Assembly: GCA_002457675.1 (NCBI GenBank)
Contig: NTKK01000002.1
Span: 1 to 64,000, forward strand
Origin: Bacteroidetes bacterium MED-G17
Lineage (GTDB): Bacteria; Bacteroidota; Bacteroidia; NS11-12g; UBA9320
Length of the DNA stretch: 64,000 bases
Reading direction: 5' to 3'
Position numbers and translations under genes: made by a program. Below are positions 21,720 through 58,741 of this stretch, in pieces. Position 1 is the first letter of the stretch. Every line of letters begins with the position of its first letter. The notes below the pieces were generated by a model, which was not told where the DNA came from, searched no databases, and was given only the letters and a program-made list of their open reading frames with translations.

Positions 21720-22847
21720 TTACGAATTGTTGAGCAATTTTTGATACAGTTTTTCGTACGAAGGAATTATTTCTTTTTGGTCAAATTTTTGGGCTTGTTT
21801 ACGAGCGTCCTTTTGGAAATTTGCCATTTTATGAGGATCATTCAATAGTGATAGCGCTTTCTCTGTCATTCCATCAATGTCCCCAACTGAACAACAATAA
21901 CCTGTGCGCCCATCAAGCATAACTTCCTTCTGACCTCCCGTATTGGTGCAAATCACTGGAACTTCACACGCCATTGCCTCCAAGGCTGCTAACCCAAAAC
22001 TTTCTGTTTCACTGGTAATAAGAAAAAGGTCGCCAACAGACAAAATTTCTTCAATTTTATTTTGTTTTCCCAAAAATTTAATGTTGTCAGCTTGGTTATT
22101 TTGACGAGATTTATTTTCTAAATTTTTTCTCTCCGGGCCATCACCAATTAGTAGCAACTTGGCAGGCAATTTCTCTCTGATCTTACAAAAGACTTTTATT
22201 ACATCTTGCACTCTTTTTACTTTTCTAAAATTAGATGCATGGATAATGATGTGTTCATTTTGAGGTGCTACCCAATCTTTTAATGCATTATTTTCCATTT
22301 TCTTAAAACGATTAAGATCCAAAAAATTCGGAACCACCGTAATATCTCTTTTCACATTAAAATAATCAATTGTATCTTCCTTTAAACTCTCAGAAACTGT
22401 TGTAACTACATCTGAATGCTCAATACAATGGCTAATTACTGGAGTGTACATTTTGTCTCTTCCAATAAGGGTAATATCAGTTCCATGAAGGGTAGTAATT
22501 ATTGGCAATTGAATCGCGCTACTTTTCAAAATATTTTTGGCCATAATTGCTGCTGCTGCATGAGGAATCGCGTAGTGAACATGCAACAAATCCAACTTTT
22601 CGTACTTTACCAAATCAACTATTTTGCCTGTTAGGGCCAATTCGTATGGTGGGAATCTAAATAATGGGTATTTTGAAACAGAAACTTCATGAAAAAAAAT
22701 GTTTTCTGAGAAATGTTCAAAACGAACCGGCTGCTCGTAGCTAATAAAATGTACTTGGTGTCCTTTTTTTGCCAAACTTTTACCTAGCTCAGTCGCAATA
22801 ACACCACTACCCCCAAAAGTTGGGTATAAAACGATACCTATTCGCAC
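21720..22847 (-). CDS. bshA: N-acetyl-alpha-D-glucosaminyl L-malate synthase (bacillithiol biosynthesis)
   Basis: GT-B (GT4) enzyme that joins UDP-GlcNAc and L-malate in the first step of bacillithiol synthesis. The N-terminal GIVLYPTFGGSGVIATELG core is diagnostic of BshA; LHVHYAIPHA, TTLHGTDITLIG, VPNFLDLNRF and SETESFGLAALEAMACEVPVI (EX7E, shown in part) follow. The frame is open to an ATG at 22952, but those 35 extra residues do not belong to the family, so I take the GTG at 22847 (VRIGIVLYP), which a -7-like box precedes. Divergent from the T9SS gene. Confidence 0.95.
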   Translation of the reverse strand: MRIGIVLYPTFGGSGVIATELGKSLAKKGHQVHFISYEQPVRFEHFSENIFFHEVSVSKYPLFRFPPYELALTGKIVDLVKYEKLDLLHVHYAIPHAAAAIMAKNILKSSAIQLPIITTLHGTDITLIGRDKMYTPVISHCIEHSDVVTTVSESLKEDTIDYFNVKRDITVVPNFLDLNRFKKMENNALKDWVAPQNEHIIIHASNFRKVKRVQDVIKVFCKIREKLPAKLLLIGDGPERKNLENKSRQNNQADNIKFLGKQNKIEEILSVGDLFLITSETESFGLAALEAMACEVPVICTNTGGQKEVMLDGRTGYCCSVGDIDGMTEKALSLLNDPHKMANFQKDARKQAQKFDQKEIIPSYEKLYQKLLNNS

Positions 22848-22952: not shown

Positions 22953-23894
22953 ATGCGAGTATGCCTTTTAATCATTCATTTAGTTTTCCTAAATTCTATT
23001 CTTTTTGGACAAACCAGATTTGAGGTCAGTATAAAACGAACTTCCTTTGAGTTGGTAGAAAATGATACCGTAAATATTTCCAGTGATGATGCCGAACAAG
23101 AAAACCAAACAATGGATAAACTGTATGATGATGACCTGGACGCAGGTTGGGAAGGCGATGATTTTAATACCCTATTTGTTGGCTTAAGATTTACAAATGT
23201 TCAAATACCTCAAGGCGCAATTGTTGATTCAGCCTATCTAGAAGTTTACTCTCATGAAGAAGAAAACGATCAAGCCTTAATTACTATCATCGGTGAAGCA
23301 ACGGATAACGCTGAAACTTTTGATTTGGATAACCTTATTACTGATAGAAAACAAACGAATGATTCAGTGCTCTGGAACGTAAACGAAAAATGGACGATCT
23401 GGACAAAATACAAATCAGCTGATTTTGCACAAGTCATTCAAGAAATTGTCGATAGAAGTGGATGGAAATCTGGAAATGCCCTTGCAATTTTTTTAAAGGG
23501 TTCTGACCAAGGCGCAAGCAATGAAGACAATGCACGAGATATGGAATCTTTCGAAAATGAAGAAGATCCAGCAGATGGTGGTGATGGAAAAAATCATCCT
23601 GAAAGAGCACCTAAATTAGTGGTTGTTTACAGCGGAGCAGCATCCACAAGCAATATAGATATTTCACAAAATGTTGAAATTATTCCAAACCCTGCAAATG
23701 ATTTTATTCAAATAAATATAGGAAAAAACCAAGAGTTTTACGTCTCAATAGTTGACCTAAATGGTAAAAAGATATATGAAAGAAATGTAAGGTCTAATGA
23801 ATATATCAATCTTTCCGAATTACCTAAGGGATCATACCTTATTCAAGGCACTCTAGAAATGGGGTCATTCAGCAAAAAATTATTGCTTAAATAA
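22953..23894 (+). CDS. T9SS type A secreted protein with a beta-sandwich domain of the phytase locus
   Basis: 313 residues. Signal peptide (CLLIIHLVFLNSILFGQ), then a domain of about 200 residues (30-228) with VGLRFTNVQIPQGAIVDSAY, ITIIGEATDNAETF, WTIWTKYKSADFAQVIQEI and GNALAIFLKGSDQG, which resembles carbohydrate/surface-binding sandwich modules (DNRLRE-like). The same domain reappears, split, in the 1359-residue protein downstream. The C-terminal 70 residues (IIPNPANDFIQINI, LPKGSYLIQG, SFSKKLLLK) are a type A T9SS sorting signal. The next gene starts on its stop codon. Probably displayed on the cell surface; activity unknown. Confidence 0.85.
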   Translation: MRVCLLIIHLVFLNSILFGQTRFEVSIKRTSFELVENDTVNISSDDAEQENQTMDKLYDDDLDAGWEGDDFNTLFVGLRFTNVQIPQGAIVDSAYLEVYSHEEENDQALITIIGEATDNAETFDLDNLITDRKQTNDSVLWNVNEKWTIWTKYKSADFAQVIQEIVDRSGWKSGNALAIFLKGSDQGASNEDNARDMESFENEEDPADGGDGKNHPERAPKLVVVYSGAASTSNIDISQNVEIIPNPANDFIQINIGKNQEFYVSIVDLNGKKIYERNVRSNEYINLSELPKGSYLIQGTLEMGSFSKKLLLK

Positions 23895-26773
23895 TGCTCG
23901 GAAACTTTTTCCAAGATAAAAAAGAAGTCAAATTCATCTTATTGAATTTGGCTTTTTTGTTTCATATACAGGGATACGGTCAAAACTTTATTTCAGGGAC
24001 CATAAAAGACGCTGAAACACAAAACATACTTGTTGGAGCTGACATACGTCAAATTGAAGGTAAAACAATTGCAATCAGTAATGAAAACGGTGAGTTTAAA
24101 CTAAAGTTATCCGATAAGTCTCCAGTGGTTATCAATTATATTGGCTACAAAAGCGACACACTTAGAAATTTTTCTACATTAAGCGTTGAAATCTTCCTTA
24201 CACCCTCGTCAAAAGGATTAGATGCATTTACAGTAAATAGTAGATTTAGCCTCCAGCAAATTGGGTTAAGAAATCAAAAGGAATCTAAAAATATTAAAAA
24301 TATCATCAGCGCAGATCAAATAAAATTATTTCCCGACATGAATGCAGCTGAAGCTGTGGCTCGTGTTCCCGGAATTACCTTGCAAAGAGATCAAGGCGAG
24401 GGTCGTTTTGTTCAATTACGTGGAACTGCGCCTTGGTTAAGTACATTAAATATCAATGGAGAACAAGTGCCAAGCCCGGAAGGAGATGTACGTTATGTTG
24501 GCCTTGATGTTATTGCTGCTGACCAAATAGAGTTTGTTGAGATTACAAAAGCGCTAACACCTGATATGGATGGAGACGCAATTGCAGGAAATGTGAATAT
24601 CATTACTAAAAGAGCCCGAAATACTGAACCCACGTTAAATATGGCTTTTTCAGGAGGCTATAACAACATAAGTAAACAACCCAATTTAATGGCAAGTGTT
24701 TCGTTCGGTCAAAGAATTAAAAAGCTTGGCTTTCACCTCAATGCAAATCATCAAATAAATAATCAGGGAGCTCATAATATAGAATATAAATTTGTACAGA
24801 GACCCACTCAAGAAGATACTAGCTTTAATCCCGTTTACTCTGATATCCAGTTTAGGCACTATAGCATAACAAGAAAAAGGACTGGTATAACCGCTACAAT
24901 GGACTACAGCTTTTCCAAAAATTCCTTCATTATTTTACGAGGAATGTTTAACAATTTTTCGGACAACGAAATTCGCAGCAGAGTAAGACATAAATTGGGC
25001 AGTGGAACTATAATAAATAAGTACTATGCTAAAGAAGCCAAAATAGAAAGAGATCTTAAAATGAGAACCAAACAGCAACAAATTGCGTCCTTGAATCTAA
25101 ATGGATCAAACTATATAAATAAAGCTAAATTAGAATATGGACTCGCCATTTCAAACGCCTTCGAACATACTCCTGACCGTTTTGAAATGGTTTTTGAAAG
25201 TGACGAACTTGACATACAGTTGGATTTATCAGAGCCTAACTTTCCAAGGATTTCATATCCCTTAGAAAGAGATATAAGTAATGCTTTTGATTTTGAGAAT
25301 TACACTTTTGAAGAAATGGAACTACGAAACGACTTGGTTGAAGACCTCAACAAAACTGCGAGATTGGATTTAAGTATTCCTCTAAAAAATCCTAAAAACT
25401 ACCTAAAAGTTGGGGGGAAATGGAGAAATAAAACCCGAGAAAGAAACAATATTGGAGTAACCTACAATAAATACTATGGCATCTTTTTACCAGGCTCAAG
25501 ACAAATTTATCTTCAAGAAGGACCAGATTTAAATTTAGCTCTTTTGGCTGAAGATTTAAAAGTTAATAACCTTTTAAATCGTGGCTATGAACTTGGTCCA
25601 ACTCCAGATCCTCAGCTTAGCAAGGACTTCTATGAATATTATCAACAACATTTTAAAATTGACGAAGACCAAAGCAAGCAGAAATCTTTTAATTCAGATT
25701 ATCAAGCTAAAGAAAATATCTATGCTGCGTATGCAATGGGTGAATATAATTTGGGTAAATTAAGTATTGTAGGTGGTTTGAGGTATGAGCTTACGGAAAT
25801 TGAACACAAGGGAAATGTTTTAAAACTTGAAAAAGGCAGGTTCTTCAGAGATTTATTTGAAGAACAAAAAAACTATTCGCGAAGTTTTCTTTTGCCACAA
25901 ATACACCTTACCTATCGGCCAGATAGAAATACCAACATAAGATTTGCGGCAACCACTTCTTACTCTCGTCCGAATTTTGAAGACAATTTGCCTTATAGAG
26001 AAGAAGAGAATGAAGACGAAGTTACTTATGGAAACCCCCTACTAAATTACCCTAAATCCTTCAATCTTGACTTTATGCTTGAAAAATACTTATCAAACAA
26101 TGGTCTTTTATCTGGAGGTTTGTTCTACAAAAGAATTGATGATTTTATATTTTTCTATAAGCGATTTGCGCATGAAGATTCTAATTTTAGTACTGCAGGC
26201 CTTAACGAAATAACTATGGCCAATAATGGTCTTTTTGCAAACGTTATGGGAATAGAACTTACAGCGAATATCAAATTTTCTAAGCTACCCAAAAATTGGC
26301 GATATCTTGGGATTTTATCAAATTACACCTTTACACTATCCGAAGCTTTTATAAATCAAAGATTACCAATTGAAAGATTAGACCAAGTATTCATCTATGG
26401 TACGGATGGCAAAGGTTTTCTTTTGAATAATAAGCAGCGAGAAAAAATAACACTACCCGGACAATCTCCTCACACAGCTAATTTTTCACTTTTTTATGAC
26501 CATCCAAAATTTTATGCGAAACTTTCAGCAAACTTTCAAGATCGGTTCTTAAATGAACTTGGGGCAGAAAAAGAACTTGATGTATTTTACGATAGGCAAT
26601 TTCACCTAGATTTTCTGGCAGACTATGTTCTAAATCCCAAAATCAAATGTTTTATTCAAATTAACAATATCACCAACCAGCCACTAAGGTATTACTTAGG
26701 AAATCCTTCGTTAACGAAGCAATATGAGTTTTACTCATGGTGGGGAAGAATTGGTTTAAAAGCAAACTTTTAG
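23894..26773 (+). CDS. TonB-dependent receptor with N-terminal carboxypeptidase-like domain
   Basis: Outer-membrane receptor, 959 residues. After a signal segment comes a CarboxypepD_reg-like domain (about 31-110; SGTIKDAETQNILVGA, IAISNENGEFKL), a plug (ADQIKLFPDMNAAEAVARVPG, FVQLRGTAPWLSTLNINGEQ in two parts, IAGNVNIITKRA) and a 22-strand-type barrel ending in FYSWWGRIGLKANF with a terminal Phe. The plug wording (MNAAEAVARVPGI, ITKALTPDMDGDA) is that of the TIGR01782-type subgroup. Placed directly before a phytase gene, it probably imports phytate or its breakdown products. One-base overlap with the previous gene. Confidence 0.95.
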   Translation: MLGNFFQDKKEVKFILLNLAFLFHIQGYGQNFISGTIKDAETQNILVGADIRQIEGKTIAISNENGEFKLKLSDKSPVVINYIGYKSDTLRNFSTLSVEIFLTPSSKGLDAFTVNSRFSLQQIGLRNQKESKNIKNIISADQIKLFPDMNAAEAVARVPGITLQRDQGEGRFVQLRGTAPWLSTLNINGEQVPSPEGDVRYVGLDVIAADQIEFVEITKALTPDMDGDAIAGNVNIITKRARNTEPTLNMAFSGGYNNISKQPNLMASVSFGQRIKKLGFHLNANHQINNQGAHNIEYKFVQRPTQEDTSFNPVYSDIQFRHYSITRKRTGITATMDYSFSKNSFIILRGMFNNFSDNEIRSRVRHKLGSGTIINKYYAKEAKIERDLKMRTKQQQIASLNLNGSNYINKAKLEYGLAISNAFEHTPDRFEMVFESDELDIQLDLSEPNFPRISYPLERDISNAFDFENYTFEEMELRNDLVEDLNKTARLDLSIPLKNPKNYLKVGGKWRNKTRERNNIGVTYNKYYGIFLPGSRQIYLQEGPDLNLALLAEDLKVNNLLNRGYELGPTPDPQLSKDFYEYYQQHFKIDEDQSKQKSFNSDYQAKENIYAAYAMGEYNLGKLSIVGGLRYELTEIEHKGNVLKLEKGRFFRDLFEEQKNYSRSFLLPQIHLTYRPDRNTNIRFAATTSYSRPNFEDNLPYREEENEDEVTYGNPLLNYPKSFNLDFMLEKYLSNNGLLSGGLFYKRIDDFIFFYKRFAHEDSNFSTAGLNEITMANNGLFANVMGIELTANIKFSKLPKNWRYLGILSNYTFTLSEAFINQRLPIERLDQVFIYGTDGKGFLLNNKQREKITLPGQSPHTANFSLFYDHPKFYAKLSANFQDRFLNELGAEKELDVFYDRQFHLDFLADYVLNPKIKCFIQINNITNQPLRYYLGNPSLTKQYEFYSWWGRIGLKANF

Positions 26774-26775
26774 AT

Positions 26776-27750
26776 ATGAAGCTTGGCATTTTAGGTTTTT
26801 TGATTGGTCTTTTTTCAATCCAGACAAAAATAAAACCAGACGTAATCACTCAAAAAGTGCGTTATGATAGCGACGATCCAGCAATTTGGTATAACACAAA
26901 AAATCCCAACAACAGTGTAATTTTCGGAACGGATAAAGATACAGATGGCTCAGTTTTAGCCTTTGATTTAAATGGAAAAATTATCGACTCGCTTTGCATC
27001 TTTGGGCTTAGAAGACCCAACAACATAGATATTCAACAAAACTTTAGTTATAACGGAAAACAACATTCAATTTTAGCACTTACTGAGAGGGAACTAAAAC
27101 AAATTCGATTATTTTCTATTCCAGATATGCATGAAATTGGAAATGGTTTTAAGGTCTTTAAACATGATACATTTCCACGTTTTGACCTGCCGATGGGAAT
27201 TACCTTAGGCGCTAAAAATCAAAAGTTGCTAATTTTTATCAGCAGAAAAGAAGGACCATCAAAAGGTTATATTCATCAATATTCCTTTGACCCAGCCAAT
27301 GCAAGTTTGAATCTGACAAAAACACTAGGAAATTTTGATGGTAAAAATGAAATTGAAGCTTTGTGTTTAGACGACGACGAAAATATCTTGTATTACAGCG
27401 ACGAAGGATTTGGCGTTCACGCACTGAATTTAACAACCGAACATGATACTGTTTTTGGAGGAACTCAATTTGGAGAAGACCATGAAGGTATCGCCTTGAT
27501 TAAAAATGACTCGCTTAACTTGGTTGTTGTTTCGGACCAAAAAAATGGTGAACTAGAACTCTTTGACGCTTCCAACAACTATATACATGTTGCAAGTGTA
27601 AAAATGAGTGCCAAAGAAACGGATGGAATTGAAATACTCAACTATCCAATAAAAATGTTTCCAAAGGGTTTATTAGTAATCATGTCAGATAACCGAACTT
27701 TTCAATACTATTCTTTAAATAAACTAATTAATTCCTTAACAAATAATTAA
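26776..27750 (+). CDS. Beta-propeller phytase (3-phytase)
   Basis: Exported phytase of about 324 residues that releases phosphate from myo-inositol hexakisphosphate with Ca2+. SDDPAIWYN near the N-terminus is the phytase-like domain signature; FGTDKDTDGSVLAFDLNGK, RRPNNID, LPMGITLG, NEIEALCLDDDENILYYSDEG and EDHEGIAL follow in propeller order. The hydrophobic start (LGILGFLIGLFSIQ) is a signal peptide. An in-frame start 39 bases upstream lies inside the receptor gene, so I use the ATG two bases after its stop. Beta-propeller phytases linked to TonB receptors are known in other proteobacteria and Bacteroidota; co-transcription here is strongly implied. Confidence 0.93.
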   Translation: MKLGILGFLIGLFSIQTKIKPDVITQKVRYDSDDPAIWYNTKNPNNSVIFGTDKDTDGSVLAFDLNGKIIDSLCIFGLRRPNNIDIQQNFSYNGKQHSILALTERELKQIRLFSIPDMHEIGNGFKVFKHDTFPRFDLPMGITLGAKNQKLLIFISRKEGPSKGYIHQYSFDPANASLNLTKTLGNFDGKNEIEALCLDDDENILYYSDEGFGVHALNLTTEHDTVFGGTQFGEDHEGIALIKNDSLNLVVVSDQKNGELELFDASNNYIHVASVKMSAKETDGIEILNYPIKMFPKGLLVIMSDNRTFQYYSLNKLINSLTNN

Positions 27751-27802
27751 CTTACTGCGAAAGGCAATACGTTTTCTTTGTTTCACTATAATTAAAAAAA
27801 AT

Positions 27803-30800
27803 ATGTTTAGAAATTACAAAATTCTTTTGATGCTTTTTGTGCTTTTCTTTTTTACAAGAAATAGCACAGCTCAGCTAAAAATGGAAAAATTAGGAACTTT
27901 CACTGCGGATGCAGATTTCGCTGAAAGTGGATCGGAAATCATTGCTTTTGACGAAACTAGTAACAGAGTTTTTTCGACCAATGGCTTTCAAAACCGAATT
28001 GATATTATTGACGCAAGTGACCCAACCAATCCCACATTTGTCAACTCGATAGATGTTTCACTAATTGGTGACGGTGTACAAAGTGTTGCTGTAAGTGGAG
28101 GCATTGTAGCTGTTGCTATTTCTAATGCCGATGGTATGCAGAATGGTTTTGTAGGATTTTTCGATACAGACGGAATATTCAAGTCTTCAGTAGAAGTTGG
28201 GGTGCTTCCTGACGCGGTAACTTTTTCCCCAGATGGAAACACTGTCATCACATCGAACGAAGGAGAGCCAAGCGATGATTATTTACAAGATCCAAAAGGA
28301 TCTATTTCTATTATTGATGTTTCTGTGGGTATTGATGCAATCTCTCAAGCGAATGTTACAACGCTTAGTTTTGATGAATACAACAATAACTACGACAGAA
28401 ATATCAGAGTCTTTGGGGTGACACAACCTTTTTTAACAGAATTCCTAGACACTACCCTAGAAGCCAACGGTGTAAAAACTTACAACAATGCTTCTGACAA
28501 AGACTGGAGATTGTCTTCTAGAGATGGAATATTTTACGCGGAGATAAATGGATTTCGCGGAGATGTAGCCTCGAATGACTGGTTGGTTGTTGATTCATTA
28601 GATCTTGCGACTAGTGGACACGAGCATGCCTACCTCAGCTTTTTGAATGAAAGAAGATTCAATGGAAACGGAATGGAAGTTTTAGCTTCCACGGACTTTG
28701 CAGGCGATGTGAATACAGCCACTTGGGTTAATATTGAAGACAATAAGTCCATAAGTATGATGCTTAGTGCTGCCTCTGATGATACCGAAGAATACGTAGA
28801 TGGACCAAATCAAACGGAAACTGTCGGTTCTAATGATTTTGGAAGTTCAGATCTTGAATTTAACTCTGAAAGAGACGGTATGACTAGACCTCAAGCGGTC
28901 GCAGTTAGATTTGATAATGTTCAAATTCAAAAGGGTGCAACTGTTAAAAATGCTTACGTACAATTTACAGTTGATGAAGCCGCAAAAAATGATGGAGAAT
29001 GTTCTGTAGATATTTTGGTAGAAGCTAATGAAAATGCATCCACATTTGACGGAACTGATTCTTTAGTTGCTAATAGAACGAAGATGAAAAATCCGAACGC
29101 CAGTGATTTAATTATCTCTGAAGTAGCTGAAGGTTCTTCGTATAACAAGTACATGGAAATTTATAACGGAACAGGTTCTGCAATTGATCTTTCCGACTAT
29201 GCCTTAGCAAATGTTGGTAATGCTCCAAGGAGAGAAGGTGAACATGAATTTTGGAGAGATTTCGATTCAGGTGCCGTAATACCTGCGGGTGGAACATATA
29301 TTATTGCCGATGATAGAGCAGACTCAGCATCAATTGTGAGCAAGGCAGATGAATTCCACAACTTTTTAAGCAATGGTGATGACGGTTATTGCTTGGTTAA
29401 AGGAAACAATTGGTATGGGCCAACTGGAAAATGGAAACCTGTTTCCATAGCAGTAGGCCCGGGAAGAGGAAGAGCAGATTATTTTGCTTTCAACTATATC
29501 ACCAATGCAGCAAGAAATTCTGTAGATGATGACAGGATTGTTTTTAATCTCGACGGAACCTTCGAAAATGAATTTGGAGCAGATGGAAGAACCTGGATAG
29601 AGAATTGGTTTGATGGTGCAGGTGATAGAGACGCTGAGCCTTCAACGCCATTTAATAATCCAGCAGGTTCAAGATGGCAAAAGATAGGAACAGACACTAT
29701 AAGAATCATAGGTGCGGGATCGTATATAGGCCTACAAAAAACTGTCAATGGTGGCGAATTTGGAAATGATGTGGCATGGACTGGAGTCGCTAGAGATACA
29801 TTAGAATATCTAATATCATCTGAAAATCCTTCTATTACTGAAACGCTAGTACATTTTGATATTCAAGTAGGAGGTGGAAACTGGTGGAGATTTACCTACA
29901 GTGATGAGGGACAAGATATTTATTTCCCATATGCTAAGGTTGACTGTGTAGGTGATTTTATGGGTGATCCTGGTTCTGGATGGGACGTTGCAGGTGTTAA
30001 CAATGGTACAAAAGATCACACCCTAATAAGAAAGTCTTCTGTAGCTGATGGAAACGGCGGAAATTGGACCGCTAGTGCTGGAACAAGTGCTGAAAACTCT
30101 GAGTGGATTGTAAAAGATAAGGATGACTGGAATGATATTGCAAAGCACGCCACTGACATTGGAAAAGATATGTCTGTTCGTTGGACTATTGCAGCAAATA
30201 CTTGGCAAACAGCAGACGAATCTGGTGCCGATCAACAAACCGTAGATATTTCTAAATTGGTTCAATCTGTAATTGATATGCCAGATTGGGAAGCTGGAAA
30301 TGCAATCGCATTATACTTCATGCCTGCCGGAATTGACCAAGGTATAAGAGTTGCTAAATCAGCTGATGATGCTCCAGATGAAGCAGCAGAATTACACCTA
30401 GAATTTGACGGTGGTGTAATCAACTGGTCTGATAACAACGAATGGCAATGGACAGAGTCAGGTTATATCGATATCTCAGAACACATTTCTGACAATACTG
30501 CTATAGCTTTTCACTACACAGGTGGAAATGGTCAAGGCGACGGATCCGGTTCGTGGTACAGAATTTCTGATATTGAAATCGCTCAGCAAGATTTGGCAAA
30601 TGATTTAGAGCCAGAATACTCTGTTGTTGGTTCAGACAATAATACTGTCTACACCGTTGCTCAAGAAAATAATGCAATGATTGTTAGTACAATCAACCCT
30701 CCTGCCATTTATGGAATCTATCCATTAGGCACCAAAGACCACAGCGCACCAGGAAACGGTTTAGACCCAACGAATGACGACGGTGGAATCAATATTGGCA

Positions 30801-31882
30801 ACTTCCCCCTAAATGGAATGTATATGCCAGATGGTATGGCAGTTGCGAACATTGGAGGAAATGATTATGTATTCACTGCCAATGAGGGCGATGCTAGAGA
30901 ATATGAAGATCTTCCTGGATTAATCGAAGAGGTTGATTTAATTGATGGAGGTAACGGTCTTGTGGGACAAGGATTCATGGATATGGATGACAATGATACA
31001 GCTGACGATGGAACTGAAGACTGGTATACACAATGGGGTGGAGATGATAAATTAAATGACATGTCTTACCCAGTTGCGTTCAATGCGCACACAAATGGTG
31101 TTACAGCAGAAGTAAATCTATATGGAGATACAGACGGTGATGGTCTAATCGAAGAATTGCACAGTTATGGTGCCAGATCATTTACCATATGGGATAATAG
31201 ATTGGCCGTAATTTATGACAGTAAAGATGAGTTTGAGCAAAACATTGCCAAAGAACACCCAGATAACTTCGGAAATGACAATGATGAGCAAGATTTTGAA
31301 GGTAGAAGTGACAACAAAGGCCCAGAACCAGAATCAGTAGCCGTTGGACAACTCGGAGATAAATACTTCGCATTCATAGGCCTAGAAAGAGCTGGAGGAA
31401 TAATGGTATATGACGTTACTGACCCTGCTAATTCAAAATATGTTATGTATGAGTTGAACAGAGATGTAACCTTACCAATTGAAGAGCAAGGTGATCTTGG
31501 TCCAGAAGATGTAAAGTTTGTTTCAGCTGAAAATAGCCCTAACGGAAAAGCTATGGTTATTGTATCAAATGAAGTAAGTAATACGGTTACATTCTATAAT
31601 GTTGAATATTTAACTGGAAACATTGAAGACATCAACGATAAAGATGTTGTTAAAATTGCTCCAAACCCTTCCAACGGATTAGTTAATCTATATGTGCACA
31701 ATGCAATTAAAGAAAACTACAATGTAGAAGTTTACAACCTAGTTGGAACTGTTGTTTACAGTGAAAGTAATTTACGTGGTGGAGTGACCGCCCTAGACCT
31801 AAACCATCTTGACAAAGGTGTTTATATCATCTCTGTAGGAAACAACAAAGTTTCTAGCAAACAAAGAGTTGTATTGAAATAG
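27803..31882 (+). CDS. Choice-of-anchor I protein with large nested insertion, T9SS type A secreted
   Basis: 1359 residues. Signal peptide to about residue 23, then the first part of a choice-of-anchor I beta-propeller (to about 210: VLPDAVTFSPDGNTVIT, NEGEPSDDY). The propeller resumes near 935 (DLEPEYSVVGSD, QENNAMIV, LGTKDHSAPGNG, FTANEGDAREYED, GARSFTIWD, SDNKGPEPESVAVG, FIGLERAGGIMVYDVTDP). Between them lie about 720 residues: half of a sandwich domain also seen in the first gene of the locus (about 320-430), a lamin-tail-like domain (about 434-560, IISEVAEGSSYNKYMEIYN), and the matching second half (to about 870). The last 75 residues are a T9SS sorting domain. Choice-of-anchor I domains occur in atypical secreted alkaline phosphatases, which fits the phytase next door. 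Acidic, Ca2+-binding-like. Confidence 0.88.
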   Translation: MFRNYKILLMLFVLFFFTRNSTAQLKMEKLGTFTADADFAESGSEIIAFDETSNRVFSTNGFQNRIDIIDASDPTNPTFVNSIDVSLIGDGVQSVAVSGGIVAVAISNADGMQNGFVGFFDTDGIFKSSVEVGVLPDAVTFSPDGNTVITSNEGEPSDDYLQDPKGSISIIDVSVGIDAISQANVTTLSFDEYNNNYDRNIRVFGVTQPFLTEFLDTTLEANGVKTYNNASDKDWRLSSRDGIFYAEINGFRGDVASNDWLVVDSLDLATSGHEHAYLSFLNERRFNGNGMEVLASTDFAGDVNTATWVNIEDNKSISMMLSAASDDTEEYVDGPNQTETVGSNDFGSSDLEFNSERDGMTRPQAVAVRFDNVQIQKGATVKNAYVQFTVDEAAKNDGECSVDILVEANENASTFDGTDSLVANRTKMKNPNASDLIISEVAEGSSYNKYMEIYNGTGSAIDLSDYALANVGNAPRREGEHEFWRDFDSGAVIPAGGTYIIADDRADSASIVSKADEFHNFLSNGDDGYCLVKGNNWYGPTGKWKPVSIAVGPGRGRADYFAFNYITNAARNSVDDDRIVFNLDGTFENEFGADGRTWIENWFDGAGDRDAEPSTPFNNPAGSRWQKIGTDTIRIIGAGSYIGLQKTVNGGEFGNDVAWTGVARDTLEYLISSENPSITETLVHFDIQVGGGNWWRFTYSDEGQDIYFPYAKVDCVGDFMGDPGSGWDVAGVNNGTKDHTLIRKSSVADGNGGNWTASAGTSAENSEWIVKDKDDWNDIAKHATDIGKDMSVRWTIAANTWQTADESGADQQTVDISKLVQSVIDMPDWEAGNAIALYFMPAGIDQGIRVAKSADDAPDEAAELHLEFDGGVINWSDNNEWQWTESGYIDISEHISDNTAIAFHYTGGNGQGDGSGSWYRISDIEIAQQDLANDLEPEYSVVGSDNNTVYTVAQENNAMIVSTINPPAIYGIYPLGTKDHSAPGNGLDPTNDDGGINIGNFPLNGMYMPDGMAVANIGGNDYVFTANEGDAREYEDLPGLIEEVDLIDGGNGLVGQGFMDMDDNDTADDGTEDWYTQWGGDDKLNDMSYPVAFNAHTNGVTAEVNLYGDTDGDGLIEELHSYGARSFTIWDNRLAVIYDSKDEFEQNIAKEHPDNFGNDNDEQDFEGRSDNKGPEPESVAVGQLGDKYFAFIGLERAGGIMVYDVTDPANSKYVMYELNRDVTLPIEEQGDLGPEDVKFVSAENSPNGKAMVIVSNEVSNTVTFYNVEYLTGNIEDINDKDVVKIAPNPSNGLVNLYVHNAIKENYNVEVYNLVGTVVYSESNLRGGVTALDLNHLDKGVYIISVGNNKVSSKQRVVLK

Positions 31883-31902
31883 GTTTTATAAAAATAATCA
31901 TT

Positions 31903-31934
31903 AAAAAAGGCCCATCTGTTGATGGGCCTTTTTT
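31903..31934. terminator. Strong bidirectional intrinsic terminator
   Basis: A perfect 14-bp stem AAAAAAGGCCCATC / GATGGGCCTTTTTT around the loop TGTT. It ends the phytase locus on the plus strand and, because the arms are A/T flanked on both sides, also serves the tRNA-Pro transcript on the minus strand. Confidence 0.92.
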
Positions 31935-31946
31935 GTTTTTAGCTTG

Positions 31947-50923: not shown

Positions 50924-51502
50924 ATGCAAGTTTTTGAACTTGAAGTTCTGCCATGGACTATTGTGCTTTTGAGTATGATCTATTTGATACTCTTATTGCA
51001 ACAGAGTCATTGGTGTTGGCTATTTGGTATTGCTTCTTCAGGCTTGTCATATATTGTGTTTCAGCCTAAATTATTTTTCGAAAGCCTTTTGTATTTATAC
51101 TACGTAGCTATTGGCATTTACGCATGGCGAGATTGGCTTAAAAAAGGCGTAAAAAACAACAGTAGGGTAAGAAGATTGTCAATAAGAAGTCATGCTTTTT
51201 TACTTATTTTCCAAATAGCCTTGGTAACTTTAATTGGGTATTTATTTAAATCAAAGCAAGATGATTTAAAATCTTTTGTTAGCGAAAGGCCTTATGCTGA
51301 CGCGTTTACAAGTATATTTAGTGTTGTAGCTACTTTTTTAGAAGCCAGACGCTATTTAGTTTCTTGGTTATATTGGATTGTTATTAATTTCTTTTCTGTT
51401 TGGCTTTACCTCAAGGTACAAGAACCGGTTTTGGCGGGACAAATGGCAGCATATGGTTTGCTCTCTATGCTTGGTTTTTGGAGGTGGAAAAAATTATCTT
51501 AA
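50924..51502 (+). CDS. pnuC: PnuC-like nicotinamide riboside/NMN transporter
   Basis: About seven-helix membrane protein of 192 residues. Typical of PnuC: WLFGIASSGLSYIVF, LYYVAIGIYAWRDWL, TFLEARRYLVSWLYWIVIN and the terminal GQMAAYGLLSMLGFWRWKK. PnuC proteins pass nicotinamide riboside or thiamine-like molecules by facilitated diffusion. The TTG four codons earlier is possible; I use ATG (MQVFELEVLPW). Its end overlaps the 3' end of the giant gene by nine bases. Confidence 0.92.
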   Translation: MQVFELEVLPWTIVLLSMIYLILLLQQSHWCWLFGIASSGLSYIVFQPKLFFESLLYLYYVAIGIYAWRDWLKKGVKNNSRVRRLSIRSHAFLLIFQIALVTLIGYLFKSKQDDLKSFVSERPYADAFTSIFSVVATFLEARRYLVSWLYWIVINFFSVWLYLKVQEPVLAGQMAAYGLLSMLGFWRWKKLS

Positions 51503-54500
51503 TAATTTTACAGTACCTTTTAAATATTTGACTTCACCATTATAAGATTCTGTTCTTATTTGATATTGATACACACCTAATGGTGATTTTTTTCCATTCC
51601 AAGCTTGGTTTTTGGCACCATCAAAAATTAATTGACCCCATCTATTGTATATTTTCATTTGATATGATTTCATACCCAATCCAATGGGTTTAAACGCTTC
51701 GTTTATATCGTTATTATTAGGGCTAAATGCGTTGGGTATATAAGTGGTAGCTAAAAAATGTACTTTAAGCATTTTAGCAATACTATCTTCACATCCATTT
51801 TTTGAAGTTAGTATTTGTTTTATCTCATAAGTCCCACTATCCGAAAATTGGTGAAAGAAACTTGCATCTGTATATAGGGAACTATCACTAATCTCATATT
51901 GGTATTTCGTAGCACCAACACTTTTGTCTATAAATTCAATATTGGCATTTAGAATATCTGTTTCATTCGGGAAAAAATCAAAGCCTGTTTTGGGTAAAGG
52001 GTATATCTCTATGGACTTCGTAGCCTCATAAAAACAATTTGGTAGCGTTTCAAATTTTAGGAAAATAGTATACAGACCACTTTTTTGATAAGTATATAAC
52101 AAGGTATTCTGATTGCTTACTGTATTCCCATCACCTAGATCAAAAATTGAATTGGAAATACTTGTTTTTAAACCTTCAGAAGCATTATTGATGATTTGTT
52201 GATCTCCAATGCAAACACTGTCTGCTACAATTTTAGCTCTGACTATGTTTTGAATTTTTATGTTTTCAAATGCCGTGTCTTTACAGCCTAAGTCATCAGT
52301 TAAAATAAGGCTTACAGTGTACAATCCAGTATCTGAATAGGCATATTCAAAACTGTCCAAGACACTATTTTTACCGTCTCCTAGCGTCCATTGAGGATTT
52401 ATGTTAGGTGATTTAAAAAGAGCTAAATTATCCGAACACGGCAAGGAGATATCTATTTGTGCCTGCGGCTTTTCTAACAAATTAAAATTATAGGTAGAAT
52501 CTTTGATACAATCATTTTTTGCTTTGGTAAACAGTTGAACTTGATATGCTCCGCTTGACAATTTTTTCCTCCAATTGCTTTTTTGAATAGTATCGCCCTC
52601 AAAAACCCAAAAAAGTTCGCTCAAAGAGTCTATTGGGCTAGGTGTAGCTTCCCAAGTAAAATATTCGTTTTCACATTTTCCTGAAAAGTTGGCTATTGGG
52701 CTTACCAAAGACTTGGTCCAGAATGTTTTTTGAATCGAGTCTTTACAACCAAATTGATTTTCTACATATTGCCAGATATGGCTTTGTCCACCCTTTTTAG
52801 GAACTACAAGTAGGGGATTTACTTGTACAAACTCTTGATTTTTCCAATACCATTTTATCTCTTTTACTTTATTCCGTGGAAAAATAGCCTGGTCTATTGC
52901 ATGTAAAGTATCGCCAAGACATATGTTGGAAGCAACAAAATTGGCTGATGGTTTAGGAAATACATCAAGAATTTTAGTCAGCGTGTCTTTACAAGCAAAA
53001 TTGGTTTCTATTTCTAAGCTCATATTGAATTTTCCGGTATCGTTGTGCACCATTTTAAATTGCTTGCTGCTGTTTATCAATTGAGTATCTAATCGCCAAT
53101 TATAATTCAATATTGTATCAATCGATGTGTTTTTTGAAATGTAGAAAATTGTGTCTCCTAAACATTTTTCTTTATAATCAAAATTGGCTACCGGTTTTTG
53201 ATAAACCCATGTCGTATCTATAGTATAATCTTCACATCCAAATGGAGTTCGAGTCGCCAACACAATTTCTTTTTTTCCGTCTGTTTTCCAACGAATAATA
53301 GCTGTATCACCTACTATAGAGTCATTATTTATCCTCCAATAATGTGAAAAAGAATCTGTTGATTGTGTAGTTGCCACATAACTCAAATAATCCATCTGAC
53401 AGCCATTGGCAATTTGCAAGCTTGGCTTGGGTGCTTTATAAATTTGCAGAGTGTCTCGAATAGTGTCTTGACATCCTCTAGAATCAACTATCCACAATTT
53501 GATGGCTTTATGCCCTGAACTATCAAACATTACTTTGGGTTCAAAAACATCGAAACTGTCTTTGCCAATTGTCCAACTTGTTGTAACAAGCGGATTGCTG
53601 AACGAGCTTTCATTTTTTGTTTCTACAAGCTGAAAAACACAAGCATTATTGACGATGAAATTAGCTTGAGGGTTTTTGTTTACCCTTACATAAAGCGAGT
53701 CATGGAGATAACAACCCGTGGGATCTGTTACGGATACAAAATACTTTTTGTCCTTACGAATATTGGCGTAAGGTCTAGTAAAAAATGGGTCGCTCAAACT
53801 GTCTTGGGGCGTCCACGCGTATTGTTTAATTCTGCCAACACCTCCATCAGCTATATTGCCAATCCGTATAGGAAAACCTTCACACATGTCGGCGGTATCT
53901 TTCATGTCAATGGTAATAGCTGGATAGACTGTGATGAAAGCTGAGTCTACACTTTTACAATTGCCTCGATCCGTAGTCAATTTGATCAACTGTTTTGCAT
54001 TGGAAGCTGTAAAATTTTGTGCTGAAAAATAAGCTAAACTGCTCGTTGGTTGGTTGATTCTTTGGGTATCGTTCCAAGAATAAGTATAATAAGCAGGGGA
54101 TTTTGTTCCAACCAAAATAGGATCATAGCTACATATTGTCGTATCTGAACGAACATTTTGTAAAACGATTCTACCTACGGCTTCCGTAGCCTCTTCACAT
54201 AAACAACTTTTCGCGTCAATATGTAATAGTAAGTTACAGGCTTGACCTTTTTGTAAGAGATACCTAAATCTTTGTTTGACGGTTTGGTTTTTCTTTATTT
54301 CTACCGAGATAGTATCTCGCGCAAGCAGTGTATCGGAAGGATCCACTATTCCATTTTTATTGGCGTCAAAAATTAACTTAACTCCCAAGTTTATATTTTG
54401 CTTTTTTACCGTACCCATATTGGTAATTTCATAATCTATTTCTGCCCACTCTTCACTTAATTCCATCATTGATTTTGCTTTTACAAACTTCAGTTGGTAA

Positions 54501-57500
54501 ATACTTTTCTTAACAGAATCTAAAAGAAGTTGATCGCTAGTGTTTACAAATATTTTACAAGAGGAATTATTCTTCACACAGGTAACGGACTGCATCACCA
54601 CAGCTTGCATATATAAAGGCACTTGACCGCAGACCAATTCGTCTGAAAGCACATAAGTAGCCAACTGGAAATGTGCGCTATCCCTAGGGGCTATTCCAAC
54701 AGGAATATCCATAATATAGCGGTTGTTGCCATTTGTGGTATCATATGTTATTTTTTGAATACCGTTATGCAAGCTGACTGTTTTTGTAGGATTTATGTAA
54801 AATCCTTTGGGTACATTAAAGATTATTTTGTCTGTTTGGGTAGTGCTATCTGGGCCTAGATTTAGAAACTTAACTGTTGTATTGTCTTCATAGTTACATG
54901 CATCAAGTGGATTCATGGTAAACTTTAGTGACGAATAGTAAGGTTGTTTTACGCCTTTAATTCTTATAGGTTTTCCCGCTGTTATGCCTGCATAAACTGG
55001 ATCTCCACATTTTAAAAATCCGCCTGGTTTTAGCATAAAAAAACTACCACTTATAAAATTGCAATTGGTGTTTATTTTAAATTTTAGTTGGGCATTCGCC
55101 CTCGAACTATTCACTTTTTCAATACCCTTTTTCTTAAGAAGAGCATCATATGGCTCCAAATAGAATCGATAAACATTGTTTGCCACTTTGCTAGGGTTTC
55201 TAACCAATGATGAATCTTGAGCGGATTTATAAAATAGCCAAAGTGTATCGGATAGCTCCATCCCTGGCTGAAGGTATATGTCAATAAATGGATTGTATAC
55301 ATTTGATTGACCAACATTTGATAGTTGCACTTCGTACTGTTGAGGTGAACAAAGATCTACTTTTTGATTGCTGTCGTTTAATGAAATTTCTAAACGTGTA
55401 TTAATTACCTTAAGTGATAAGTTGACTTTAGAAAATTGACAAGCATAGTCATCCAAAGAGTCTGGATAATTTACACAATCCCAACCAGCAAGCAGATCAA
55501 AATTTTTGGGTGTACAAGCGGTAAATTTTGCTTTCACTTCGAACTGCTTTTGTGCTTGGGCAGCCAATGTACCAAAAAGAAAAATATCATTTTGCTTACT
55601 GAGCAACTTGTTTGAAGACAGTTCTTTTATCTGCAAAAGCTGCATTCCTTGATATTTTCTTGCACCAAAAAATAGCTTTTCAGCAATGCCCTGTCTGTTG
55701 GTATTTGAAACACTAATAACCCAAATCGCCGTATCGTTGGCAGGGTTTACTTCTTGTTCTTGAGCTACTATATTTATACTCGCTTTTTCAATATTTACTA
55801 AGTCTCGAGAATTGCTAGAATATAGGGTATCAAGACCGTTTCCTAATTGGTTTCTTTGCCTAAAAACAAAAGAATAGTTGACGGTATTACTTCCCGAATT
55901 GGCTACACAATTGGTAGTAATTTTTGGTTGAAATACTCCATGAAAACCATCATCGCTTAGCAAAAACTCTCCACCTTTATCACTGAACAAAGAATCTAGC
56001 GAAAAAACAACTTGATTTGTGTTGGAACTACTAGGGTATACTTTTAAATTGTATTGGTTTCTAATGCTTCCAATACCTTTGGTTCCATAGTGCCACATCC
56101 GTGCTTCTTGGCATGTAAAACCTTTGGGCAAATGCACAATTACTTTTTCTACATTGGCCCAGTTTCTATACTCATATGGGAATATGTCATTTCCCGCGTA
56201 ATTTGAGCAACATGGCCCTAAACCTAAGTAAAAATTTTGGCTTATGTACTGTTCTTTGCAGCCCGAATTATTATAAGTTCCTGGCCCCCAATTCGTAAAA
56301 TAATAACCCACCAAGTTAAGTCGGTCTGAAAAGGTATCGCATTGAAATTTTTGGCTAGCTGAAGGATTGCTTACGGAGGATATGTAGAATTCGTTGGTAA
56401 ACTCCATTTCTCCAATATTTCCTCCATAATTGTCATTTACAATATACAATACTTCAAGCTCAATACTATCTGCATTTTGGTAATTAAAATTCGTGGGTAA
56501 TCGGCTCCCACCCGAGGTCAGGCCTGCATAACTCAAATCAAAAGAAAAAGTTCTATTTTGACCCGTTGTATTTTGACTGTAGTTTATACCTGTCCCATTA
56601 AAATATTGCACGTTGGAACGATATATTTTAGCGCGCACTGATTGTACGTCCAAAAATTTTCCTAAACGTATTTTGCTAATGGCACGGCAATAATTCCATC
56701 GAAATGAATTGGAGTAAATTTTACCTCTAAAAGTTGCTTTTAGGGTATCACCGAACATAATTCTCTTCTTTTTCACCTTGCCTTGGTCTATACTCCCTGT
56801 ACTGTCTGGAATTCCGTCAGAATTATTGTCTGGTTTACCAAAACTTATTCGCTCAGCTAAAAAATCGTTAAAATGCAAGCCATAAGCACAAGTAGGTGAA
56901 CAATGTAGTTTTATCTGGTCTTCATCGCAAAAAGGAAGAAACCATTTATTCTTTGCACAAGTTGTGTCTGGATTGTAACGCCATTGTATTTTGTACTTGA
57001 GATTGTTGTTTTTGGTATTGATACAATTTCCTTTAATCTTTATTTTCAATTCACCCCGATTTAGCGTTACCTTAGGAGAACCATAAAAAACGGCACGAAT
57101 GGTATCACCTTTTTTAATCAGCTTATTAGGTTTCCAAGAAGTCCCATTTTGGTGAATAAATTGAAAATCCGCAGCTTGCAAGGAATGACTTAAACCAGCT
57201 TCAAGAATTAAATCTAAGGAACTTTTAGCCGCTGTACTTGCCGTGACAAGTCTGCCTGAATTGAATTCATAATTTAGCTCTGCATCACGAGAAGGTTTGA
57301 TGTCTGTAGGGGCCAATTTAGTAAACCTGATGGACTGATAATAACCATATGAACCCCATGTTGTGCCTTCTGTAATTTGGTTTTTACATTGGTTTTGGTG
57401 ATTTACCAAAGTATACCATCTATTGCTCCAAAAAGCCGCATTACAATTTTCTGATATACATGCACGGCTATGCCAATAAACATAAATGCTATCTAGGCTA

Positions 57501-58660
57501 TTGAGCGCTGGCAAGTCGACTATCACTGAAGCTGCTGCATTATTGCCCAAACAAGCATAAATCCCGTTTCTATTTGCGTAACTAAGCACGCTGAGTGTTT
57601 GTATTTTTATTTTCTTACCTTTTTTTCCCATCGAATAATAAAAGCTGTCTGTAAGAACTTCGCTAAGCATATTATTACTTGATTGCCGCACGGTAAGCGT
57701 AAGTTTTCTTGCAGTATCGTTTCCTGTATTTACCAATATAGACCGTTGTGCATGCGGTTTTGAAAAATCAAAGCAAGGTGTGGTATAGGACGTATTGATT
57801 GTTTTTATTTTGGGACTTTTGGTGCTAATCTGACTACCTACTTTTTTGCTTTGTCGAATGCAAATATTGCGCCCGCAATACCAAATTGCTTGATAGTGAA
57901 CATCTAAAGAATCACAAGCTACATTTTGAAAACTATCTACAAAAGTGATTTGCTCGTGTTTATCAAAATAAATGTCTTTGTTGCCAATTTTTTTAAAATA
58001 ACTACTGTCTAAAATGTGCCAAAAGGTATCCTTGCTCTTTTGGGTTAATTTAGGTTTAGCACCTCTCCATTGTAGGCCTGACCCAAGCATTCTGAAAAGA
58101 GCTATTTTGACCAATTTTCCATTGCCGCTGTTGCTTAAAACCACTTTTCTAGAAAATGTATCTTTCACATCTAAAGTATTTAAGGATTGGCTAATAGACA
58201 ATATTTGGAGTGATGGCTGTAGAATATTTAGTGGTGTGGATGTTTTTTGAAGTTTGGTGCTGCCTTGGTTTACTTCCACTTTATAGGTGAATAGAGCGCC
58301 TGAACTAACTTTATTGCTCGCTCCGCAAAGTACTTTGCATCGCAACTTACAGGTAATTGACGAGGCCAGGCCAATTGAGGAAAAAGTAAATATAGGCCGA
58401 GCTGGGTTGCTTACATTGCTTTCTGAAATTCCATTGCCTAACAAGCTACCCGAAGCATACTCCATATTTTCTGGCAAGGATAATTGTATACTGCCTGCGC
58501 CAATAGCAGATGTACTTATATTTCTTAGCTCTATGGTAATAAAATCTCCCGAGGTACATAGGTGAATAGATGATGGATTACTTAAACTTAACACCATGCT
58601 TTGTGAACAAAGCGTATATGGCAGAAAACAAAAAACAATCCATTTAAAAAATCTTTTCAT
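51494..58660 (-). CDS. Giant T9SS type B (gliding-associated C-terminal) surface protein with PKD-like repeats
   Basis: About 2388 residues, signal peptide from MKRFFKWIVFCFLPYTLCSQS. Residues 25-1500 are many beta-sandwich stretches resembling DUF11/conserved-repeat regions (LSNSGNGKLVKIALF, VRAKIYRSN). From about 1500 on, PKD/Ig-like units recur with a C-terminal Cys-Asp pattern (GCQDTIRDTLQIY, ACKDTLTKILDVF, GCKDTAFENIKIQ, GCEDSIAKMLKVH). The terminal 85 residues (YIPNAFSPNNNDINEAF, YNRWGQLIFDG, KSPLGVYQYQI) are a type B T9SS sorting domain. Likely an adhesin or matrix protein on the surface. Upstream in-frame starts exist but the signal peptide fixes this one. Confidence 0.92.
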   Translation of the reverse strand: MKRFFKWIVFCFLPYTLCSQSMVLSLSNPSSIHLCTSGDFITIELRNISTSAIGAGSIQLSLPENMEYASGSLLGNGISESNVSNPARPIFTFSSIGLASSITCKLRCKVLCGASNKVSSGALFTYKVEVNQGSTKLQKTSTPLNILQPSLQILSISQSLNTLDVKDTFSRKVVLSNSGNGKLVKIALFRMLGSGLQWRGAKPKLTQKSKDTFWHILDSSYFKKIGNKDIYFDKHEQITFVDSFQNVACDSLDVHYQAIWYCGRNICIRQSKKVGSQISTKSPKIKTINTSYTTPCFDFSKPHAQRSILVNTGNDTARKLTLTVRQSSNNMLSEVLTDSFYYSMGKKGKKIKIQTLSVLSYANRNGIYACLGNNAAASVIVDLPALNSLDSIYVYWHSRACISENCNAAFWSNRWYTLVNHQNQCKNQITEGTTWGSYGYYQSIRFTKLAPTDIKPSRDAELNYEFNSGRLVTASTAAKSSLDLILEAGLSHSLQAADFQFIHQNGTSWKPNKLIKKGDTIRAVFYGSPKVTLNRGELKIKIKGNCINTKNNNLKYKIQWRYNPDTTCAKNKWFLPFCDEDQIKLHCSPTCAYGLHFNDFLAERISFGKPDNNSDGIPDSTGSIDQGKVKKKRIMFGDTLKATFRGKIYSNSFRWNYCRAISKIRLGKFLDVQSVRAKIYRSNVQYFNGTGINYSQNTTGQNRTFSFDLSYAGLTSGGSRLPTNFNYQNADSIELEVLYIVNDNYGGNIGEMEFTNEFYISSVSNPSASQKFQCDTFSDRLNLVGYYFTNWGPGTYNNSGCKEQYISQNFYLGLGPCCSNYAGNDIFPYEYRNWANVEKVIVHLPKGFTCQEARMWHYGTKGIGSIRNQYNLKVYPSSSNTNQVVFSLDSLFSDKGGEFLLSDDGFHGVFQPKITTNCVANSGSNTVNYSFVFRQRNQLGNGLDTLYSSNSRDLVNIEKASINIVAQEQEVNPANDTAIWVISVSNTNRQGIAEKLFFGARKYQGMQLLQIKELSSNKLLSKQNDIFLFGTLAAQAQKQFEVKAKFTACTPKNFDLLAGWDCVNYPDSLDDYACQFSKVNLSLKVINTRLEISLNDSNQKVDLCSPQQYEVQLSNVGQSNVYNPFIDIYLQPGMELSDTLWLFYKSAQDSSLVRNPSKVANNVYRFYLEPYDALLKKKGIEKVNSSRANAQLKFKINTNCNFISGSFFMLKPGGFLKCGDPVYAGITAGKPIRIKGVKQPYYSSLKFTMNPLDACNYEDNTTVKFLNLGPDSTTQTDKIIFNVPKGFYINPTKTVSLHNGIQKITYDTTNGNNRYIMDIPVGIAPRDSAHFQLATYVLSDELVCGQVPLYMQAVVMQSVTCVKNNSSCKIFVNTSDQLLLDSVKKSIYQLKFVKAKSMMELSEEWAEIDYEITNMGTVKKQNINLGVKLIFDANKNGIVDPSDTLLARDTISVEIKKNQTVKQRFRYLLQKGQACNLLLHIDAKSCLCEEATEAVGRIVLQNVRSDTTICSYDPILVGTKSPAYYTYSWNDTQRINQPTSSLAYFSAQNFTASNAKQLIKLTTDRGNCKSVDSAFITVYPAITIDMKDTADMCEGFPIRIGNIADGGVGRIKQYAWTPQDSLSDPFFTRPYANIRKDKKYFVSVTDPTGCYLHDSLYVRVNKNPQANFIVNNACVFQLVETKNESSFSNPLVTTSWTIGKDSFDVFEPKVMFDSSGHKAIKLWIVDSRGCQDTIRDTLQIYKAPKPSLQIANGCQMDYLSYVATTQSTDSFSHYWRINNDSIVGDTAIIRWKTDGKKEIVLATRTPFGCEDYTIDTTWVYQKPVANFDYKEKCLGDTIFYISKNTSIDTILNYNWRLDTQLINSSKQFKMVHNDTGKFNMSLEIETNFACKDTLTKILDVFPKPSANFVASNICLGDTLHAIDQAIFPRNKVKEIKWYWKNQEFVQVNPLLVVPKKGGQSHIWQYVENQFGCKDSIQKTFWTKSLVSPIANFSGKCENEYFTWEATPSPIDSLSELFWVFEGDTIQKSNWRKKLSSGAYQVQLFTKAKNDCIKDSTYNFNLLEKPQAQIDISLPCSDNLALFKSPNINPQWTLGDGKNSVLDSFEYAYSDTGLYTVSLILTDDLGCKDTAFENIKIQNIVRAKIVADSVCIGDQQIINNASEGLKTSISNSIFDLGDGNTVSNQNTLLYTYQKSGLYTIFLKFETLPNCFYEATKSIEIYPLPKTGFDFFPNETDILNANIEFIDKSVGATKYQYEISDSSLYTDASFFHQFSDSGTYEIKQILTSKNGCEDSIAKMLKVHFLATTYIPNAFSPNNNDINEAFKPIGLGMKSYQMKIYNRWGQLIFDGAKNQAWNGKKSPLGVYQYQIRTESYNGEVKYLKGTVKLLR

Positions 58661-58712
58661 CCTAACCAATATGTAAAAATAGGGGTTTTGAAAAAATTCT
58701 ATTTTCTGGGAC

Positions 58713-58741
58713 AAAAAAAGGAGCACCGATTGGCACTCCTT
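58713..58741 (-). terminator. Intrinsic terminator on the minus strand before the giant gene
   Basis: Read on the minus strand: AAGGAGTGCC, loop AATC, GGTGCTCCTT (10-bp stem with two G-U pairs) followed by seven T. Something upstream on this strand, the 59.1-59.7 kb ORF or an RNA, seems to end here. Confidence 0.65.

Follow-up and report, generated by a model that had tools for sequence, protein, structure and literature searches.

The 64,000-nucleotide stretch analysed here (the window), from contig NTKK01000002.1 of Bacteroidetes bacterium MED-G17, contains a four-gene unit that is probably a calcium-phytate scavenging operon, in which the product of the first gene (ORF1) would capture the substrate, a TonB-dependent receptor would import it and a periplasmic phytase would act on it, accompanied by an auxiliary giant surface protein apparently built by serial domain insertion. 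For the first three genes, the evidence for a phytate system is good. The giant is best read as an outer-surface, organophosphate-related protein that was recruited to the operon, a role suggested by the fusion of its choice-of-anchor I propeller family to phosphatases and by fusions of the same propeller to the D domain of ORF1 in two other phytase operons.

The unit lies on the plus strand and consists of ORFs at 22953-23894, 23894-26773, 26776-27750 and 27803-31882. ORF1 and the receptor gene overlap by one base, gaps of 2 and 52 bases precede the phytase and giant genes respectively, and the unit is closed by an intrinsic terminator (31902-31935, plus strand, although listed on the minus strand too) whose 15-pair stem precedes a run of T. 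These coordinates and the stem confirm the tight four-gene unit with a strong terminator described in the first-pass annotation, and Pfam and NCBIfam matches bear out its naming of the products as a T9SS protein, a TonB receptor, a phytase and a T9SS giant. A further hairpin of 16 pairs, followed by T residues, falls among the earliest codons of the receptor gene (23921-23958); it could attenuate expression between ORF1 and the genes that follow, or be a chance occurrence in AT-rich DNA. For the neighbouring bshA gene the listed ORF extends to 22952, but its relatives align from near 22847, which we take to be the true start; this would leave an upstream region of approximately 100 bp before 22953. 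A scan upstream of 22953 for a Bacteroidota promoter, or for the Pho-box-like site that had been suggested as a check, gave nothing above background. No synteny around bshA was found in relatives, so that nothing is learnt from it on the acquisition of the unit. Elsewhere in the window (51497-58726, minus strand) a 2410-residue open frame has no better than 23-28% matches among the genes found around bshA in relatives. The source genome (1.67 Mb in 17 contigs, 99% complete) encodes the T9SS translocon protein SprA (at C3), so that T9SS cargo can be exported, and both ORF1 and the giant carry the TIGR04183 sorting domain of type A cargo, with PF18962 sorting tails at 6e-12 each.

The receptor (23894-26773, plus strand) possesses a carboxypeptidase-regulatory-like N-domain, a TonB plug and a barrel, and matches TIGR01782 (TonB-Xanth-Caul) at 1e-127, whereas its score against the SusC/RagA model TIGR04056 is 40.9 bits, far under the cut-off of 368. 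There is no SusD homologue among the four genes, and the pairing of a SusC-subfamily receptor with a SusD lipoprotein that defines PUS or SusCD-type loci is not found here. The third gene (26776-27750, plus strand) encodes a beta-propeller (3-)phytase, which matches PF02333 at 5.6e-16 (58.9 bits, above the curated cut-off of 21). When aligned to 3amr it keeps the catalytic and calcium-site residues DDPAIW, N82, N83, D85, R105, K158, E194, E210, D235, E237, Q255 and D283, and the residues matching these sites are invariant or nearly so in an alignment of seven sequences. The identities of receptor and phytase, considered secure at the outset, are upheld by these matches. The phytase has a signal peptide that lacks the lipobox-like Cys present in all 14 of the phytase relatives compared, and it is therefore probably a soluble periplasmic enzyme, which would mark a shift away from the lipoprotein form.

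ORF1 (22953-23894, plus strand) encodes a T9SS-secreted protein of 313 residues with a signal peptide, one CBM96/DNRLRE-like domain (D) and a T9SS type A tail. As noticed earlier, this domain is common to ORF1 and the giant (BLASTP 8e-8), though the copy in the giant is split in two and lacks the acidic DPxDGGDGxNHPER motif of ORF1. Homologues of ORF1 (n=15) display an unusually strict acidic pattern: S43, D45, D46, E48, D55, D59-61, D63, E67, D205, D208, D211 and E217 are invariant, among others, as are the basic or histidine residues R195, H215 and R218. The structure model of ORF1 (mean pLDDT 78) is mainly beta; compared with PDB entries by Foldseek, it comes closest, among structures of similar size, to 8wab, a CBM for chondroitin sulfate (TMt 0.65-0.67), and to 7vbo, a CBM for alginate (0.53). 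A D-rich relative matches CBM96 under the cut-off. It is a natural inference that the D domain of ORF1 may serve as a calcium- and polyanion-binding surface module.

Resemblance to these CBMs would also fit a locus that imports another organophosphate, or a phosphorylated or anionic polymer, with D binding an anionic polysaccharide and the enzyme being a phytase-like phosphatase with a different substrate. The NCBIfam top match of the enzyme is indeed a phytase-like phosphatase, the sequence is among the most divergent phytases found (57 bits, compared with 100-370 for most others), and D accompanies PhoX as well at one locus (L136/L259). Nevertheless, the enzyme retains the residues that correspond to the active and calcium sites of phytase, and in other species phytases with better matches occur in the same D-receptor-enzyme arrangement. 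We therefore consider a different substrate unlikely and retain calcium-phytate as the probable one.

In other Bacteroidia genomes a TonB receptor of this type lies no more than two genes from the phytase in approximately 23 of 29 phytase regions, an adjacency that is conserved as in a phytase/TonB receptor uptake locus. A search through 84,980 species genomes, based on the receptor alignment, yielded 80 loci. The ORF1-type D gene is directly upstream of the receptor in 29 of the 30 nearest (the 29 closest, L111-L139, plus L155), the sole exception being L131, whose contig starts inside the receptor, and in none of the 50 more distant loci. Wherever a D locus has enough flanking sequence, the phytase is present as well, in most cases immediately after the receptor gene and in some on its other side or on the other strand. 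This distribution identifies the D protein, receptor and phytase as the conserved three-gene core of one receptor clade; the E-values, together with the retention of these three genes by about 30 further species, rule out chance. The giant is absent from the nearest locus (L111, in an uncultured Flavobacteriales MAG, where the receptor is 51% identical) and from nearly all other phytase loci. The first-pass annotation had treated the four genes as one set, whose order was to be sought across Bacteroidota; conservation of all four is rejected, whereas that of the first three holds. Its reading of the unit as a surface system for phytate or organic phosphate gains from the receptor-phytase linkage, from the way the ORF1-type protein tracks one receptor clade, from the phosphate-starvation induction of the homologous phytase/receptor pair in Flavobacterium johnsoniae (PMC8115612) and from the fusion of choice-of-anchor I proteins to phosphatases; the giant itself is outside the core.

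Phytase loci in other Bacteroidia (L080:1606-3207, L089:13253-14947 and L097:1847-3490) are preceded by a TPR protein, probably a regulator, with additional DUF6377 and weak HTH matches at L089 and L097; the window locus has no upstream TPR protein. A Neomarinimicrobiota MAG encodes two tandem phytase genes behind a single receptor (L174:10857-13138).

The giant (27803-31882, plus strand) is a T9SS surface protein of 1359 residues which, as read from split HMM matches, is a four-deep nest of five unrelated domains: a choice-of-anchor I propeller that contains a jelly-roll (J), which contains a CBM96/DNRLRE-like D domain, which contains a Lamin-tail domain (LTD), which in turn contains the domain termed X. 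The protein matches choice_anch_I PF22494 at 2.7e-96, LTD PF00932 at 2.9e-11 and choice-of-anchor I NF038117 at 432.8 bits over both propeller parts (cut-off 300), the choice-of-anchor I match being broken in both the Pfam and the NCBIfam scans. HMMs were built from uninterrupted relatives with the window sequence left out, the inner domains being found uninterrupted elsewhere (J within a propeller in L211, L214, L215 and L252; D in triplicate in L193-L195; LTD within a propeller in L027-L029 and L034; X in tandem in L199-L201). The resulting order is P1-J1-D1-L1-X-L2-D2-J2-P2, all on the plus strand. The first propeller part, P1 (residues 26-204; 27878-28414), matches positions 9-187 of the propeller (ca) HMM at residues 44-196; J1 (205-328; 28415-28786) matches J positions 6-112 at 210-316; D1 (330-430; 28790-29092) matches D positions 2-97 at 333-429; and L1 (431-537; 29093-29413) matches LTD positions 4-107 at 433-536. 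The innermost, uninterrupted domain X (538-708; 29414-29926) matches X positions 11-155 at 548-700. The second parts then follow in reverse: L2 (709-788; 29927-30166) with LTD positions 102/108-181, D2 (789-868; 30167-30406) with D positions 98-172 at 790-868, J2 (869-932; 30407-30598) with J positions 110-163 at 872-927, and P2 (933-1268; 30599-31606) with ca positions 207-467 at 927-1261, ahead of the T9SS type A sorting tail (31655-31879; PF18962/TIGR04183).

Profile positions adjoin at each break (propeller 187|207, J 112|110, D 97|98, LTD 107|102), and joining the halves raises the score in every case to roughly the total of the two (D, 100 and 60 bits to 161; LTD, 124 and 100 to 229; J, 83 and 35 to 98; propeller, 48 and 83 to 135), whereas joins in the wrong order bring no gain. 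Cross-matches of each HMM to other segments of the giant do not exceed 4 bits. Once joined, the halves of J, D and LTD each match an NCBIfam model that runs unbroken through the splice point, with joined D reaching 21 bits against NF033679, under the cut-off of 34. When residues 329-868 (540 residues) are removed, the giant aligns to a 754-residue protein with J inside the propeller (in L252) as one HSP of 706 columns at 38% identity (4e-145), whereas with the intact giant this alignment breaks between L252 residues 317 and 324. Unguided MAFFT likewise places a single gap at this point in the relatives with D, with a length of approximately 360 residues. At the sequence level, therefore, the two halves of each host domain flank a guest and together constitute one domain; a linear multidomain arrangement was ruled out by the split matches and by the 706-column alignment obtained once the inserts are removed. 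A structure model of the D, LTD and X portion, with a mean pLDDT of 42, is of too low quality to bear on the nesting; its alignment contained D rows only, since the combined MAFFT alignment piled unrelated fragments onto the Lamin-tail region. A PDB sequence search with the giant gave one marginal match.

A second copy of the full four-deep nest was not found in 395 class-level and 392 phylum-level genomes, nor in 15 genomes with the operon, as might be expected if the architecture were an assembly artefact or a decayed chimera. Such an origin is highly improbable, however, as the giant is encoded by a single open frame of 4080 bp within a 218-kb contig, all junctions keep the reading frame and coincide with domain boundaries, conservation is good in the two halves of each domain, and shallower nests of the same families exist independently. 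In one such relative (L197:1-2154, G028:C1) a Lamin-tail domain hosts X at a loop other than the one used in the giant, and the X/Lamin-tail pair therefore seems to have been combined more than once.

Choice-of-anchor I proteins are often fused to PhoX, PF13449 or 5'-nucleotidase domains, which agrees with the initial remark that this domain occurs in some phosphatases. In genomes of the same family PhoX, matched in two stretches, surrounds a choice-of-anchor I propeller that itself surrounds LTD, an arrangement that Pfam shows in L034, L036 and L037. We observed this PhoX gene, broken by the propeller, which is in turn broken by the Lamin-tail domain, at L034:5723-11438, with counterparts in L035-L037 and L039. 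It is followed by a gene of approximately 600 residues, in L034 encoding a MauG-type di-haem peroxidase; PhoX and MauG are a phosphate-starvation pair in Flavobacterium johnsoniae too (PMC8115612). Elsewhere the propeller hosts a PF13449 phytase-like domain (L251, in the genome that holds L111), which may itself contain LTD (L261 and L262). A D-choice-of-anchor I fusion adjoins the phytase and receptor in L120 (Saprospiraceae) and in L136 (a MAG labelled Chitinophaga pinensis). The latter locus also encodes, in the same operon as the phytase, the fusion and the receptor, a T9SS protein with three D domains followed by PhoX (L259:7215-11183). The choice-of-anchor I domain may be linked to the MSP130 skeleton proteins of animals, which we treat as a lead only.

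These fusions bear on the alternative that the giant has no part in the system, being a T9SS surface adhesin whose gene happens to lie behind that of the phytase and is merely co-transcribed. Its absence from nearly all phytase loci, including L111, would favour this, as would the 52-base gap that precedes it, its slightly higher G+C in comparison with the other three genes, and the presence of J, LTD and X in many surface proteins. Against it, the D domain is common to the giant and ORF1, choice-of-anchor I is fused to D in phytase operons of two other lineages (L120 and L136), and many proteins join choice-of-anchor I to a phosphatase. We judge a bystander role to be a minority possibility and continue to favour the giant as an organophosphate-related component of the operon.

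In the proposed mechanism, the type IX system would place ORF1 and the giant on the outer surface of the cell, where ORF1 may capture a polyanionic, calcium-bound substrate via its strictly conserved acidic D domain and hand it to the TonB receptor for import, after which the beta-propeller phytase would remove phosphates in the periplasm. The giant, a surface-exposed accessory from the choice-of-anchor I family with its phosphatase links, may provide an extracellular binding or hydrolysing platform, and would have arisen by serial insertion of J into the propeller, D into J, Lamin-tail into D and X into Lamin-tail. More speculatively, and with less than even confidence, choice-of-anchor I propellers could form the core of a "Russian-doll" family of organic-phosphorus surface proteins, up to four insertions deep, that sit inside PhoX and host PF13449 phytase-like propellers, jelly rolls or Lamin-tail domains, the window member serving a phytate uptake operon as its arm for phosphate esters outside the cell, perhaps with catalytic activity.

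Receptor-phytase loci are already known, as is nesting as such. In the homologous Fjoh_1367/Fjoh_1368 phytase/TBDT pair of F. johnsoniae, which is up under phosphate depletion (PMC8115612), and in Citromicrobium, where a phytase-adjacent TBDT has been noted (PMC3400609), a beta-propeller phytase adjoins a TonB-dependent receptor with predicted phytate import, as in the window; beyond this pair, the window encodes D-domain and choice-of-anchor I proteins displayed through T9SS, and its phytase lacks a lipobox. The Flavobacterium PUS loci (PusCD), one cluster of which carries T9SS proteins, similarly combine outer-membrane TonB-linked gates with phosphatases for organic phosphorus (PMC8115612), but the four window genes include no SusD/PusD homologue and the receptor is of the TIGR01782 type. 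Other choice-of-anchor I proteins (PF22494/NF038117), including PhoX- and 5'-nucleotidase-fused forms, share the propeller and secretion tail of the giant, whereas its own propeller holds the four-deep insert stack and lacks a recognised hydrolase domain. Among the 2.7 million domains of a 2026 survey, insertions were mostly single-level, with an extreme of six levels in cyanobacterial RpoC2 (PMC13114784). The RpoC2 Si3 region has the same recursive A1-B1-C-B2-A2 pattern, but consists largely of hybrid motifs in RNA polymerase, whereas the giant combines five unrelated families in a secreted surface protein and, judged from its domain matches, ranks with the deepest nests so far described in insertion proteins, near the RpoC2 extreme. 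In the literature searched we found no description of the conserved D-domain T9SS partner or of a phosphatase-linked nested choice-of-anchor I family, and no paper joining "choice-of-anchor I" with "phosphatase".

The conserved D-domain T9SS protein extends the known phytase/TonB pair and makes surface capture of phytate by Bacteroidota testable. The giant, with its five unrelated families, and its relatives at shallower stages present a case for studying nested protein evolution and folding after export, and the recurrent link between choice-of-anchor I and phosphatases offers a functional lead for a poorly understood propeller family.
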